DNA of 20,135 nt, from IMG/VR virus record IMGVR_UViG_3300043119_000513, positions 1 to 20,135 of that record. One strand, written 5' to 3'. Made by a program: the position numbers and the translations under genes. Shown piece by piece: positions 7,687-19,586 of this stretch (the stretch's first letter is position 1; each line of letters opens with the position of its first letter). The notes below the pieces were generated by a model. That model saw only the letters and a program-made list of their open reading frames with translations. It had not been told where the DNA came from and did not search any database. The stretch comes from a virus.

Positions 7687-9806
7687 CCGGCTATCCCGCC
7701 CTGATCCGGGCCGTTGATCGAATACGATTGTGCGGCGTTCATGCGGTTGGCCTCGCTTTTCAGGGCGAACTCCATCTGCATTTCCTCACGCTTGAGGTTC
7801 AGTTCCGCGTTGGCCAGTTCACGCTTGAAGGCCAGATCGGCGGCTTGCTCCTCGCGGCGCTGCTGCATTTCCAGCGCGTGTTTCTCGCGGGCCAGTTGGA
7901 GGTCGCCCGCCGCCTTCTGCTCGTCGCGCTGGGCCTGAGCCTGCGCCTTGGCGGATTCCAGTTCGATGCGGGCCTTGGCTTCCTCGACCTTGGGATCGGG
8001 CATCGGAGGCTCTTGCCCCTTCGCCGCCATCCGCTCCATCGCCTCCGGGCTTTCCGGGTCGGTGAAGAACGCGGTCGGGTCTTTGAAGCCGCCCGTCTCG
8101 ATGAGTTTGGCCAACGTGTTGAAATACTGCTTCGGCGTCACCAGCGGGTTATCCGGCCCGACCGTGCTGATGATCATTTCCTGCTTGGCCAGCATCATCG
8201 ACAGAAGCTGGACCTTCTCGGCGTTTGTCCCGCCACCCAGGGCGACGTTGGGCACCACATCCATGTTGACCCGCCACGAACGCGGATCGACCGGCACCCA
8301 CTGGTTCCGCAGCTTCACCATGCGCGATTGACGCTGGTTCTCGGCGGTCAGTTTCAGCAGGCCACGGAACAGTCGGCGCACACCCGAGGCCATCACGCGG
8401 GCGATCAGTTCAATCCGCTCCTGCGAGCGCGAGAACTGCCCGTTCGCAGCCGTGGCCGTGGTGTTCTGCAATGCCTCGGCATCCAGACCCATCGACACCT
8501 TGGACATCCCCGTGCGGTTCTCGCGCAGTTCGTCCATGTAGGTGATCAGCGGGAAGGCAGCCTGCGACGTGTTCGGTGCCGCCGCGAAGAAATAGGCTTC
8601 CGAAGGCGAACCCTCGGCCCGCAGCACCGCACCGACCTCAGTGTTCATGGCGTCTTCGATGTTGCCGCCACGGCCAACGACCGTCCGGGGGAACACCGAC
8701 TGGGCCAGACCGTCAGCCCACGCCCGCAGCGCCTTGGTCTTCGTCCACTGGATGTCGGAAACCTTGTCCGACACCGACTCGCCAAAGAAGCTATGCGGCT
8801 CCGGGTCGCATTGGAGGTCCGTGAAGGGCCGCTCGTCCACCGGCTCGTTGGCCACGATCTTGAACGACGGCCCCAGGGTGCAGATCCGACGCAGTTCGGC
8901 AATGCCGTCGTCGTCGAAGTCCACGTTGATGTAGCTCTCGACATACAGCACCAGCCGGGCGCTATCGTCCGAGGTCGAGCCGCCGATGGTGTCCCGATAC
9001 GGCTGGCGAGCAAGGCGCTCGTCCGAGGTGTCCAGTTCAGAACCGTCCGTCGAACACGACAGCACCAGATCCCGGTCGTAGCCCATCGCCACCAGTTCGG
9101 AGACGCGCTTTTCACAACGGTGGCCGACATAGCCCTCGTCGTCCAGCGTCCGCATCCGGCGACCGATCAGAAGCTCGTCAGGCGGGACCGCAGCGATCCG
9201 CACCCGATCCACCCGCTTCTTGAGCCGCAGAGTGACGTTCAGCCCCTCGTCGCCCTCGGAGGTCTCGACAATCTCGGCCTCAACGGACTTCTGGAGGTCT
9301 TCCAGCAGTTGCGTCAGGGCCATCTCGTCGAGGCCGGTGTATTTCGTGGTCGAGACGGTGAAACTGTCGTCCCACCACCACTTGATGAAGCCGACCTTCT
9401 CCCGGAGCGCGTTCTTGATCGCAGCCAGGAACACCTCGAAGCCGTCGTTATCGACCGTGACGACGTAGTTGATGTAGTCCGTCGCCTGCTCGGCGTTGGC
9501 AACGTCTTCTTCCGACTCCGGGGCGAACTCCACCACGTTCTCGGAGCCGAAGAACACCCGCATCAGGCTCGGCAGGATGGCGTTGATCGTGTCGTGAACG
9601 TCGCGGGACACGATCTGCGACCGGCCCGCCTCCTCGTCGCCGTAGGGACGCCCGAAATAGCGGTCGATGGCCTTGGCGCGTTGAGGCCCGATGTCCGAGT
9701 CGATAAAGCTCGTCGCGTCCTCGATCTCAGAGGAGAGGATGGACGCAAGCGCGGCCTCATCCATCCCGGTCGAGACGGCCTCGTCGTCGTCCTCGGACTC
9801 ATACAT
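7683..9806 (-). CDS. Portal protein (P22 gp1-like, 707 aa)
   Basis: This is the largest gene of the window and encodes a 707-residue protein, close to the 725 residues of P22 portal. Key regions are the N-terminal acidic segment, RYFGRPYGDEEAGRSQIVSR with DTINAILPSLMRVFF (clip/stem start), the segment around VGFIKWWWDDS, IAAVPPDELLIGRR, the Asp-rich VDFDDDGIAELRRIC, DPEPHSFFGESVSDKV, and ENRTGMSKVSMGLDAEALQNT, which I recognise as common to podovirus portals. From about residue 600 to 690 it becomes a long Ala/Glu/Gln/Lys/Arg coiled coil (KVEEAKARIELESAKAQAQ), matching the helical barrel at the portal C-terminus. Twelve copies form the DNA channel at one vertex. It is joined by TAATG to the upstream gene and follows terminase, as expected. 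Confidence 0.92.
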   Translation of the reverse strand: MYESEDDDEAVSTGMDEAALASILSSEIEDATSFIDSDIGPQRAKAIDRYFGRPYGDEEAGRSQIVSRDVHDTINAILPSLMRVFFGSENVVEFAPESEEDVANAEQATDYINYVVTVDNDGFEVFLAAIKNALREKVGFIKWWWDDSFTVSTTKYTGLDEMALTQLLEDLQKSVEAEIVETSEGDEGLNVTLRLKKRVDRVRIAAVPPDELLIGRRMRTLDDEGYVGHRCEKRVSELVAMGYDRDLVLSCSTDGSELDTSDERLARQPYRDTIGGSTSDDSARLVLYVESYINVDFDDDGIAELRRICTLGPSFKIVANEPVDERPFTDLQCDPEPHSFFGESVSDKVSDIQWTKTKALRAWADGLAQSVFPRTVVGRGGNIEDAMNTEVGAVLRAEGSPSEAYFFAAAPNTSQAAFPLITYMDELRENRTGMSKVSMGLDAEALQNTTATAANGQFSRSQERIELIARVMASGVRRLFRGLLKLTAENQRQSRMVKLRNQWVPVDPRSWRVNMDVVPNVALGGGTNAEKVQLLSMMLAKQEMIISTVGPDNPLVTPKQYFNTLAKLIETGGFKDPTAFFTDPESPEAMERMAAKGQEPPMPDPKVEEAKARIELESAKAQAQAQRDEQKAAGDLQLAREKHALEMQQRREEQAADLAFKRELANAELNLKREEMQMEFALKSEANRMNAAQSYSINGPDQGGIAG

Positions 9807-16206: not shown

Positions 16207-16312
16207 GCCGCGCCTCCATTGCATCCGCCACCGGACGCGGGACCGGGGCGGCGAGAGGCGAACGCAGGGCGCGGATCAGCGCCTCGGCCACAGTGACAGG
16301 CTTGACGGTCAT
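16193..16312 (-). CDS. Small overlapping peptide between gcrA-like and helicase genes (39 aa)
   Basis: ATG at 16312 shares ATGA with the stop of the GcrA-like gene, and the TAG at 16195-16193 lies 13 bases inside the helicase frame. The peptide begins MTVKPVTVAEALIRALRS, has a Pro-rich centre and ends MEARRDRP, so it is a short helix followed by a basic tail. A GAGG lies five bases before the start. I recognise nothing like it. Its two-sided coupling argues that it is translated, perhaps mainly to carry ribosomes from the upstream gene to the helicase start. Confidence 0.55.
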   Translation of the reverse strand: MTVKPVTVAEALIRALRSPLAAPVPRPVADAMEARRDRP

Positions 16313-16989
16313 GCCGCCCTCGCCGCTTTCCGGTGATCCTTCGGGGACCACGCCTTGCGAAGACCGCCCATCGCCTTGCGGTGGGCCTTGCAATAGGTCT
16401 CGTCGGTCGGGAAGCAGCAGGACAGGACTTCATGCCGCTTGCCCAGCGGGAACGCGCACTGGCCGCTCTCGCGCTCCATCCACGGACGGGCGAACGACAC
16501 ATCGGCCAGGATCACCGTCTCGCGCTCAACCTTGGCGGTCTGGATGCGCTCGCGCTTGGCTTGCTTCTCCCGCGAGGCCAACTGCGCCCGCAGCCGTTGC
16601 GTCTCGCGATTGCCACCCGAGGCGCGAGGGAACTCCGCTGCCAGCTTCAGGCGGTGCACCTTGCCGATGACGGCGTTGCGGCTGACCTTGATGCCGAACC
16701 GCGCCGAGATTCGACTGGCCATCTCGCTGACGTAAATGCCCTCGATCCAGAGGGACCGCAGCATCTCCAGCACCTCAGGAACCTCCCACAGGGTCGCCTT
16801 GCGCTCCACCACCGTCCGCACCTTGCCCAGCAGGGGCACACCGAGGCGGCGGCACCGGGCGACGACCGAGGACCGCGACCGGCGCTCATGGGTCGGAGGC
16901 AGCAGGACGGACGCAATCTTGCCTGCCGAGCATCCGAGCGCGGCCAGTTCGATCACGCGGGCGTCGTCGGCTTTTGTCCACTCGCTCAT
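16309..16989 (-). CDS. gcrA: GcrA-like transcription regulator with two HTH modules (226 aa)
   Basis: ATG 16989 has GAGGGG seven bases upstream. The central segment, LRSLWIEGIYVSEMASRISA followed by SRNAVIGKVHRLKL (residues 78-116), is the hallmark DNA-binding part of GcrA, an alphaproteobacterial sigma70 cofactor tied to GANTC methylation and cell-cycle genes. The C-terminus has QCAFPLG (Cys178), Cys191/192 and YCKAHRKAM (Cys200), as in the GcrA C-terminal domain. The N-terminal 50 residues (EWTKADDARVIELAALGCSA ... RSSVVARCRRLGVPL) look like a second, diverged copy of the same HTH. A basic, coiled region (130-160) joins the parts. At 226 residues it is longer than typical GcrA (about 170). 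It may redirect host RNA polymerase toward phage promoters. Confidence 0.85.
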   Translation of the reverse strand: MSEWTKADDARVIELAALGCSAGKIASVLLPPTHERRSRSSVVARCRRLGVPLLGKVRTVVERKATLWEVPEVLEMLRSLWIEGIYVSEMASRISARFGIKVSRNAVIGKVHRLKLAAEFPRASGGNRETQRLRAQLASREKQAKRERIQTAKVERETVILADVSFARPWMERESGQCAFPLGKRHEVLSCCFPTDETYCKAHRKAMGGLRKAWSPKDHRKAARAA

Positions 16990-16991
16990 GG

Positions 16992-17348
16992 TTATTCCCC
17001 TCTTGTGTGTGGTTGAACGGTGACGCGGACGACGGCTTCCCGCTGAGGCGGGGCGTCGGACCACGAAAGGGTGATGCGCTGGCAGCAGGAGTCGTCGATC
17101 ACCAGACCGCGCTCCACGATCAAATCCAGGGTTGCCTTGGCAAGATTGTCGAGGTCGCGAGCGCGCCGGTCGGGCCGGTCAAAAATCATCTCAATGATGA
17201 ACGGGCCAGCAATCAGCCCAGCAGGAACGCGAGGCCCCGCGGCGGCTTTCCATGCCTTGTATCCAGCCGAGAGATAGCGGCGAGCCTTGCCTGCAAAGAG
17301 ACCGTTCGTGGACGGGGGGAACGGCAGATCGAAGCTAACCGCGCTCAC
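16992..17348 (-). CDS. rusA: RusA-type Holliday junction resolvase (118 aa)
   Basis: GTG at 17348 forms GTGA with the stop of the upstream gene. The protein has the RusA pattern: N-terminal LPFPPSTNGLF, a basic region (ARRYLSAGYKAWK), a hydrophobic strand with IIEMIFDRPD, then RARDLDNLAKATLDLI carrying catalytic Asp65 and Asp67, and GLVIDDSCCQRI carrying the third acidic site (Asp85/Asp86). The end is strand-rich with VRVTVQP. RusA enzymes work as dimers, cutting four-way junctions made during phage replication and recombination, usually before packaging. The normal length is about 120 residues. It sits in the replication operon immediately before the GcrA-like gene, separated by two bases. 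Confidence 0.93.
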   Translation of the reverse strand: MSAVSFDLPFPPSTNGLFAGKARRYLSAGYKAWKAAAGPRVPAGLIAGPFIIEMIFDRPDRRARDLDNLAKATLDLIVERGLVIDDSCCQRITLSWSDAPPQREAVVRVTVQPHTRGE

Positions 17349-18538: not shown

Positions 18539-18736
18539 TCAGCCGTGCATCTTTTCGAGCAGGGCGATTTCGTCGTCGGTCAGGTTGGCAATCGGGCCAA
18601 ACTTGACGCCCAGCTCTCGAAAGATGCGGAGCGCCATCGTCACGGACGGACCCTCACCGCGAACAATCTGGTGCGCGTAAGGCTTGCTCACCCCGATGCG
18701 TTGAAGGTCTGCGGCTTTGACAGTGGAAGCGTTCAT
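18539..18736 (-). CDS. Cro-like helix-turn-helix protein (65 aa)
   Basis: I start at ATG 18736 (MNASTVKAADLQRIGVSKPY); an upstream extension would run through the promoter and operators. The protein is a single compact HTH domain: AADLQRIGVSKPYAHQIVRG with recognition helix near SKPYAHQIV, then SVTMALRIFRELGVKFGPIA and an acidic C-terminal helix (LTDDEIALLEKM). It is the first leftward gene, opposite to the repressor, as Cro is to CI in lambda. It has no ribosome binding site and the predicted transcription start is within a base or two of the ATG, so it may be made from a leaderless message. Confidence 0.8.
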   Translation of the reverse strand: MNASTVKAADLQRIGVSKPYAHQIVRGEGPSVTMALRIFRELGVKFGPIANLTDDEIALLEKMHG

Positions 18737-18743
18737 GCCGTCA

Positions 18744-18772
18744 ATGTATGCCGAGCGCATACCATGAAGCAA
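18744..18772 (-). promoter_or_regulatory. Leftward early promoter covered by an operator
   Basis: On the minus strand TTGCTT (18772-18767) stands 17 bases before ATACAT (18749-18744); CATACA at 16 bases is an alternative -10 reading. The perfect operator at 18746-18762 lies across the -10 region, so bound repressor would block polymerase. Transcription would begin near 18737, at the start codon of the Cro-like gene. Confidence 0.55.
18746..18762. promoter_or_regulatory. Operator site 1 (perfect)
   Basis: GTATGC-CGAGC-GCATAC is a perfect inverted repeat with 6-base half sites and a 5-base spacer. The identical half sites recur at 19242-19258 over the rightward promoter. It overlaps the -10 box of the leftward promoter. 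Confidence 0.75.
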
Positions 18773-18781
18773 GCGGAAAAA

Positions 18782-18798
18782 GTATGCGGAGCGTGTCC
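18782..18798. promoter_or_regulatory. Operator site 2 (one good half site)
   Basis: GTATGC followed, at the same 5-base spacing, by GTGTCC, which matches only three of six positions of the expected GCATAC. It starts 36 bases from operator 1. It shares the longer word AAAAAGTATGCGG with the site at 19207, which supports it as a genuine weaker site. Confidence 0.5.
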
Positions 18799-18832
18799 CG
18801 ACAATCCAGATCGGGCGGCGCATCTTCACGGC

Positions 18833-19138
18833 ATGGAGAAAGCAAACCATTTGAGGGCTTGGCGGCAGTTCCGGCGCATGACGCTTGAACAGGTCGGGGA
18901 CGCCATCGGCACCACTAAGGCCGTGATCCAGCAGCTTGAGTCCGGGCGCACAGCCCTATCCCAAAAGTGGCTGAACAAGCTGGCCCCGGTGTTCGGCACT
19001 ACGCCGGGCTTCCTGCTAGACCACGATCCTAACGACATCGACGCCGCGTTCCTGGATGCGGCGATGTCCGTTCCTAAAGAGCGACGGGCGCAAGCGGTCG
19101 AGATACTGGCGACCTTCCGAAAAGCCGCAAAAGGCTAA
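18833..19138 (+). CDS. HTH (XRE-family) phage repressor, CI-like (101 aa)
   Basis: ATG 18833 gives MEKANHLRAWRQFRRMTLEQ. Residues about 6-62 are a classic XRE/lambda-repressor HTH: LRAWRQFRRMTLEQVGDAIG, then TTKAVIQQLESGRTALS with recognition helix near KAVIQQLE, then WLNKLAPVFGTTPGFLLDHD. The last 35 residues form a helix (VPKERRAQAVEILATFRKAA). There is no S24 self-cleaving peptidase domain, unlike lambda CI. The gene is flanked by matching operator pairs on both sides, and divergent from the Cro-like gene, so it is the likely lysogeny repressor. No ribosome binding site precedes the ATG, suggesting a leaderless or weak message. An upstream in-frame extension overlaps the operators and is rejected. 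Confidence 0.85.
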   Translation: MEKANHLRAWRQFRRMTLEQVGDAIGTTKAVIQQLESGRTALSQKWLNKLAPVFGTTPGFLLDHDPNDIDAAFLDAAMSVPKERRAQAVEILATFRKAAKG

Positions 19139-19160
19139 CCACCCGACAGCCGCAATCTGA

Positions 19161-19186
19161 CCCAAAAGCCCGCCCGGCTTGGGTTT
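19161..19186 (+). terminator. Possible weak terminator after the repressor gene
   Basis: CCC and AAGCC pair with GGCTT and GGG around a CGCCC loop, leaving an AA bulge, and only three or four pyrimidines (TTTC) follow. It begins 22 bases after the repressor stop. The short T-run makes it a weak candidate. Confidence 0.35.
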
Positions 19187-19206
19187 CATGCTGGCCGGCG
19201 CAAAAA

Positions 19207-19223
19207 GTATGCGGCGCCGCTAC
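19207..19223. promoter_or_regulatory. Operator site 3 (one good half site)
   Basis: GTATGC is followed at 5 bases by CGCTAC, matching three of six positions of the expected half site. It lies 35 bases before the perfect site 4, mirroring the 36-base distance on the other side of the repressor. It also lies inside a larger near-palindrome (19203-19227, AAAAGTA ... TACTTTT around GCGGC-GCCGC), so a terminator-like role is possible as well. Confidence 0.5.
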
Positions 19224-19230
19224 TTTTGTG

Positions 19231-19259
19231 TTGCGTCCCCGGTATGCGTTCGGCATACT
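19231..19259 (+). promoter_or_regulatory. Rightward early promoter covered by an operator
   Basis: TTGCGT (19231-19236) is separated by 17 bases from CATACT (19254-19259), a good sigma70-like pair. The perfect operator at 19242-19258 covers the spacer and the -10 box. Transcription would begin about 20 bases upstream of the first rightward gene. Confidence 0.65.
19242..19258. promoter_or_regulatory. Operator site 4 (perfect)
   Basis: GTATGC-GTTCG-GCATAC has exactly the same half sites and spacing as operator 1 but a different spacer sequence. This is what is expected when a dimeric repressor reads the two half sites and ignores the centre. It overlaps the -10 of the rightward promoter. Confidence 0.75.
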
Positions 19260-19286
19260 CTCCTCACACACCGAGGAGACAGCCAG

Positions 19287-19586
19287 ATGGCCACCGCCGA
19301 AACCATCACCCCGACCGAAGCCCGCCGCCAGCTTGAGTGGCTGCGCTTTTCCAGCGAAGTCGGTGACGCCGCCCGCAAGTCCGAACTCCGCGCCATCATC
19401 CGCGCCGCCGATGAGGTCGAGGAAACCGATCCGGCTGAAATGCTGAAATGGGCCGAGCGTCTGGAAAGCTGGGCCGCTCACTACGACACCCAGGGCCGCG
19501 AGTTTCAGGCCACGGAAAACCGCGAGATTGCGGCCCGCTATCGCCGCTGCGCCGACCGCGCTCTGGGCCTGAAGGTGGCGGCATGA
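19287..19586 (+). CDS. First rightward early gene, unknown helical protein (99 aa)
   Basis: ATG 19287 has GAGGAG eight bases upstream and lies just behind the operator-controlled promoter. The sequence MATAETITPTEARRQLEWLR continues with charged helices (KSELRAIIRAADEVEETDPA; EMLKWAERLESWAAHYDTQG; ENREIAARYRRCADRALGLK). It is entirely alpha-helical in appearance and has no motif I recognise. It is coupled to the next gene by ATGA. Being first under the repressor-controlled promoter, it should be expressed early after infection or induction. Confidence 0.8.
   Translation: MATAETITPTEARRQLEWLRFSSEVGDAARKSELRAIIRAADEVEETDPAEMLKWAERLESWAAHYDTQGREFQATENREIAARYRRCADRALGLKVAA

Follow-up and report, generated by a model that had tools for sequence, protein, structure and literature searches.

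The viral contig considered here (the window) is the complete 20,135-bp record IMGVR_UViG_3300043119_000513, which was searched in full for all motif statistics given below. Near one end it carries four copies of the word GTATGC around a gene for a compact helix-turn-helix (HTH) protein. The question raised by this locus is whether these words are the operators of a phage repressor and, if so, whether they follow the oL/oR plan of lambda, as the original prediction proposed, or a plan of their own. Judged from sequence comparison, the locus is very probably a temperate-phage immunity region, with a lambda-like organisation and an operator number like that of N15 and phiKO2, in which dimers of the repressor and of a Cro-like protein would act on the dyads.

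The word starts on the plus strand at 18746, 18782, 19207 and 19242, as predicted, and reverse halves start at 18757 and 19253. Six of its eight copies in the 20,135 bp fall within the two operator segments, while shuffling gives an expectation of about 3.2 across the whole window. The first and last sites are perfect GTATGC-N5-GCATAC palindromes (18746–18762 and 19242–19258), as had been claimed, and they are the only such dyads in the contig; the proposed motif search in the rest of the genome covers this contig, where the perfect dyad does not recur. The window contains seven perfect dyads of the 6-N5-6 form when any sequence is allowed, and GTATGC is the sole half-site used twice. Dual use of a half-site of any sequence was seen in 18 of 300 dinucleotide shuffles, and a GTATGC dyad in none of the 300. 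A chance repeat was rejected on the basis of this result and of the confinement of the perfect dyads to two promoters.

The inner sites (18782 and 19207) each keep one perfect half and match at 9 of 12 bases overall, and the spacings within the pairs are exactly 36 bp (18746/18782) and 35 bp (19207/19242); in these respects the original description was accurate. Places that match at no fewer than 9 of the 12 bases number eight in the contig, and five of these lie inside 18746–19258. One site that had not been listed, GCATGG-AGAAA-GCAAAC at 18831–18847, lies over the repressor start codon; it matches at 9 of 12 bases, a score equalled in 2% of shuffles. The outer sites are 496 bp apart. The proposed mirror image holds for the positions of the sites, strong outside and weak inside, but not for the half-sites, as the left half is the one retained in both weak sites. 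The features of the region are collected in Table 1.

Table 1. Predicted features of the immunity region, in window coordinates.
Feature	Position	Strand	Description
Cro-like gene	18539..18736	-	65 aa, HTH; HTH_3, E 1.6e-4; recognition segment GVSKPYAHQ
Predicted cro promoter	18745..18772	-	TTGCTT (18772-18767), 16 bp, CATACA (18750-18745)
Operator A (O_R1-like)	18746..18762	no strand	Perfect dyad GTATGC-N5-GCATAC over cro promoter -10 box
Operator B (O_R2-like)	18782..18798	no strand	Half operator GTATGC-GGAGC-GTGTCC, 36 bp from A
Predicted repressor promoter, leaderless	18798..18826	+	CCGACA, 17 bp, CATCTT, 6 bp to ATG
Candidate operator C (O_R3-like), degenerate	18831..18847	no strand	9/12 bases, over repressor start codon
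Compact repressor gene	18833..19138	+	101 aa, Cro/C1-type HTH; HTH_31 1.6e-8, HTH_3 1.3e-7
Weak operator, O_L2-like	19207..19223	no strand	GTATGC-GGCGC-CGCTAC, 35 bp upstream of outer site
Predicted rightward early promoter	19231..19259	+	TTGCGT, 17 bp, CATACT
Operator, O_L1-like	19242..19258	no strand	Perfect dyad over rightward early promoter -10 box
5'-terminal hairpin of rightward transcript	19259..19279	+	TCTCCTC-ACACACC-GAGGAGA, 7-bp stem, ribosome-binding site in 3' arm
First gene of rightward (P_L-like) early operon	19287..19586	+	99 aa, unknown function, conserved in relatives

The proteins encoded on either side of these sites have been classified by domain searches. The HTH_3 and HTH_31 matches of the 101-residue repressor exceed the curated cut-offs, placing it among the Cro/C1-type (XRE) HTH proteins, and its recognition helix reads TTKAVIQQL. 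The HTH_3 score of the Cro-like protein (22.1 against a Pfam cut-off of 23 bits) falls just short, and roughly 10 bp separate the cro start codon from the outer operator. The AlphaFold model of the repressor is all-helical (pLDDT 88.7), with the HTH helices at residues 18–25 and 29–37, and its nearest folds are SinR, the DNA-binding domain of P22 c2 and DdrO. No S24 peptidase or oligomerisation domain was found in the repressor by domain search or in the model, which contains the HTH and short helices only; the modelled C-terminal region is short and helical, with no known tetramerisation domain. The minus strand continues beyond cro with small genes, a RusA-like resolvase, a DnaB-like helicase and an O-like replication initiator. 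Repressor and cro are thus transcribed divergently and the replication genes follow cro, as is typical of lambda-type regions, and the repeated dyads appear to overlap both early promoters, as they do in such regions.

Two other features of the contig were observed. A 251-aa open reading frame at 16309–17064 corresponds to phrog_16311, of unknown function; its N-terminal part resembles GcrA-type cell-cycle regulators by eye, and it is conserved in the related locus L003 and more distantly in L012. The contig end (19950–20135) lies inside a run of 15-base repeats, gcggacctgaggagc / gcggacctgagtggc, which would encode pentapeptide repeats.

Whether the sites are read by the neighbouring proteins has been probed by comparison with homologous loci. 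Scanning viral contigs with the repressor alone, in a search seeded by exact 8-mers only, gave no matches; two-sequence alignment of the repressor identified 32 viral loci. Relatives in bacterial genomes were found at five loci, four of them in Brevundimonas, and the two that were checked are single hits in whole genomes. Such loci in Brevundimonas genomes fit the expectation for a temperate phage. The comparison set consists of 23 non-redundant loci from phages and Brevundimonas genomes. A 17-bp dyad is present at the equivalent place before cro, over the -10 box, in 23 of 23 loci, each with its own word, where these A sites were chosen by symmetry in a defined interval and the B, C and downstream sites were then searched for independently. 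The half-sites fall into the classes GTATGC, CCTCGC, CTTTGC, CCCTAC, CTCCAC/CTTCAC and ATTCGC.

The remaining sites follow a common plan. When each locus was searched downstream of the repressor gene with its own half-sites over a spacing range of 18–60, the best pair was 34 or 35 bp apart in 21 of 23 loci and 25 bp apart in the other two; the own pair outscores the best pair built from the half-sites of other classes in all loci but L032 and L036. The two with 25-bp pairs (L014:6291-6364 and L022:6297-6370) have a possible third site 32 bp before the pair. On the cro side, the profile of own half-sites has two maxima relative to site A, at +35 (z 5.1) and at +69 (z 4.9). The A-proximal half of the +35 site matches at 5.26 of 6 bases, and its distal half at 1.96 of 6, which is background. 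The third site, C, lies at +69, or at +80 in most loci of the GTATGC class. Across the family, the cro side therefore carries three sites at 35 + 34 bp spacing, of which the central one is a half-site, and the opposite side carries two. The two-site design that was originally proposed does not describe this plan, although in the window itself only the first two cro-side sites (+36) are clear, the third being represented by a candidate that is degenerate or shifted over the start codon. The broader proposal of a lambda-like oR/oL plan fares better, as the layout is conserved across the 23 loci while its sequence changes.

A strict sigma-70 consensus scan found no promoter in this region, and the promoters in Table 1 are read from the family alignment on the operators rather than from mapped starts. 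In that alignment, both early promoters have a cTTGc -35 box shortly before the outer operator, and the far half of the operator coincides with the -10 box; the boxes keep a fixed distance from the operators across the family. Sequence and alignment thus agree with the claim that each perfect site overlaps the -10 box of one of two divergent early promoters. The repressor promoter of the family is predicted to have a.GAC -35 box at the inner cro-side site, a spacer of about 17 bp, CACAAT or CATAAT, and 6 bp before the ATG. Site 18782 has its centre 43 bp ahead of the repressor ATG, the predicted start, with equal geometry in the relatives. This position, -43 of the predicted repressor promoter, is that of lambda O_R2, which lies near -42. 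The weak cro-side site reported originally is present, but it is more than a spare site: it is a half-site throughout the family and holds this position relative to the predicted repressor promoter.

The rightward transcript is predicted to begin with the hairpin listed in Table 1, and a hairpin with a different stem sequence is predicted at the matching place in about 20 of the 23 loci. In 13 clear cases, with stems picked from the folds, the arms of each locus pair at 99% with one another and at 73% after swapping between loci, and none of 5000 swaps matches the native value. Possible roles of these hairpins are masking of the ribosome-binding site, protection of the mRNA or an effect on antitermination.

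If the sites are operators, the words should vary with the protein segment that reads them. Among the loci, half-site distance correlates with the distance between repressor recognition helices (Mantel r 0.67, and partial r 0.51 given the remainder of the HTH domain; p 2e-4); no correlation is seen with the C-terminal region of the repressor (r 0.07, p 0.19). The window repressor itself separates the two levels. Overall it is nearest to repressors of the CCTCGC class (61–69% identity, compared with 49–57% for members of the GTATGC class), but both its recognition helix (TTKAVIQQ) and its operator place it in the GTATGC class. The Cro proteins of every GTATGC-class locus share a (V/I)SKPY(A/S)HQ segment.

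Further evidence comes from relatives that carry different repressors. L003 is approximately the same phage on both flanks (89–97% identity over several stretches) with a different repressor. BLAST identity between L003 and the window breaks off at 18635, a point in cro that separates the HTH from the C-terminal half, and begins again at 19259; identity to L012 and L013 likewise resumes exactly at 19259, the base after the outer operator. At the equivalent places L003 has the dyad GTTCAC-N5-GTGAAC, perfect at 7973, followed 34 bp away by a half site whose retained half is the one beside the perfect site, and its second pair (6979/7013) is also spaced by 34 bp. L012 and L013 have CGTTAC-type dyads at 33–34 bp spacing. 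As the repressors and dyads differ and the DNA on the right side is shared only from 19259 onward, the operators have been swapped together with the repressor and the head of Cro. This joint exchange is as expected if the operators are what these proteins read. The cro gene of the window is itself recombinant, with a head like that of GTATGC-class phages, a tail that is almost the same as in the heteroimmune L003, and a break near 18635.

Taken together, this comparative evidence strongly supports the sites as functional operators. The layout in 23 loci, the coupling of helix and half-site and the operator swap all argue for the original proposal that they serve the compact HTH repressor and the Cro-like protein. 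The opposing explanation, that the sites are chance repeats or belong to a host factor such as a Caulobacterales cell-cycle regulator acting at promoters, is extremely improbable: the motif is short and about three GTATGC words are expected in the window, but the half-site changes with the phage repressor while its position stays, and a host factor would keep its word.

In the mechanism suggested by these data, dimers of the repressor and of the Cro-like protein would bind 17-bp sites composed of two GTATGC half-sites. Occupancy of the outer sites would mask the -10 box of the cro promoter (at 18746) and that of the rightward early promoter (at 19242), turning the lytic genes off. Repressor bound to the half operator at 18782 most likely supports or activates its own leaderless promoter, comparable to lambda CI at O_R2, while at high dose the degenerate third site, which overlaps the start codon, may permit repression. 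Repression of the rightward promoter would be strengthened by the inner site at 19207. Binding, activation, autorepression and the preference of each protein for particular sites are what we infer here; by analogy with lambda, the repressor most likely decides between dormancy and killing.

Other roles for the inner sites have been weighed. They could be auxiliary sites for repression of the early promoters (or sites for Cro), with the repressor gene expressed under a cII-like activator or constitutively. This explanation is rather unlikely. It agrees with the retention of only one half by the inner cro-side site in nearly all relatives, and the other half overlaps the predicted repressor -35 box, such that symmetry may have been lost to promoter sequence. 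The centre of 18782 at -43, in a geometry shared by relatives, argues against it, as does the preservation of the retained half in almost all loci despite differences in class sequence. Looping of the intervening 460–500 bp by repressor bound at both groups, with the inner sites stabilising the loop, was part of the original lambda analogy; it finds no support in the sequence and is less probable still. Two groups of two sites each are what a loop needs, and lambda loops over 2.3 kb (PMC3708714, PMC5880393). However, the distance between the outer O_R and O_L sites ranges from 452 to 5,909 bp among relatives, and thus no phasing is conserved; the modelled C-terminal region of the repressor also lacks a recognisable means of tetramerisation. 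The 34–36 bp spacing corresponds to approximately 3.3–3.4 turns rather than whole helical turns, so that neighbouring dimers would not be on one face of the DNA, and side-by-side cooperativity of the lambda type is not implied. A non-cooperative lambdoid repressor, that of 933W, has been reported (PMC3317979).

It is tentatively possible that the family has an operator grammar of its own, composed of 17-bp sites at 35 + 34 bp (not whole helical turns), with the middle site kept as a lone half-site beside the -35 box of a leaderless repressor promoter, self-activation from this half operator without a lambda-type oligomerisation domain, and a swap of an immunity cassette of about 0.6 kb. In that reading, the right edge of the cassette would be the last base of the outer operator.

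Comparison with known systems places the locus close to lambda. Relative to the lambda map the window is the reverse complement, such that the promoter originally called rightward is the equivalent of P_L. The two systems share a repressor divergent from cro, an O-like initiator and DnaB-like helicase behind cro, a further early operon downstream of the repressor, dyads of 17 bp that cover the -10 boxes of the two early promoters, a leaderless repressor transcript (predicted here) and an inner site near -42. Adjacent operators in lambda are spaced by approximately 23–24 bp, both O_R and O_L have three sites, and CI has a C-terminal domain (S24) for autocleavage and oligomerisation; here the spacing is 34–36 bp, O_L has two sites, the third O_R site is weak and the 101-aa repressor has no S24 domain. 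Due to these differences in spacing, O_L number and S24, the locus is not filed as strictly lambdoid. In addition, the inner cro-side site of the window is a half operator, and the repressor gene lies directly beside the second promoter. In lambda, activation proceeds from O_R1 and O_R2 and repression from O_R3 (PMC3708714).

In the immB region of N15 and phiKO2 (CB, Cro), three O_R sites separate the repressor from cro and O_L has two (PMC4997575), and the 3 + 2 count appears to match the family plan described here. The N15 sites are 16-bp T-A-N10-T-A elements, all three within an 80-bp substrate, in contrast to 17-bp sites at 35 + 34 spacing over 86 bp, and O_L controls a different operon here. 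A correlation between the Cro recognition helix and the O_R half-site is attributed to Hall et al. (2005, J Mol Biol 350:667) where that work is cited in PMC4997575. As described there, the coupling is of a similar kind; here it concerns the repressor in Brevundimonas-linked phages, where operator and helix are swapped as one cassette. In the Cluster A mycobacteriophages (L5, Bxb1, Trixie), repressors and site motifs diverge jointly and define immunity groups (PMC6550527); these phages have 20–30 asymmetric stoperators genome-wide, whereas the sites here are at two promoter regions only. The cyanophages Mvi-Yong1342-1 (Microcystis) and Pam1 (Pseudanabaena) have a similar divergent pair of Cro-like and repressor genes, and their Cro proteins share 42–45% identity with that of the window over about 50 aa. 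GTATGC dyads were not seen near these pairs. BLASTN of the region against phage records returned no match, and no description of a Brevundimonas phage switch was found in the literature searched.

A lambda-like switch in Brevundimonas-linked phages therefore appears to be undescribed in that literature. The loci provide a natural example of how a phage changes immunity type, in which the layout is kept while the DNA word and the helix that reads it change together. As about six operator specificities are read by one repressor fold, the set offers a test bed for the joint change of repressor and operator specificity. It may also be used to study recombination of immunity cassettes, as well as the working of a lambda circuit without the lambda-type C-terminal domain and with sites 35 bp apart.
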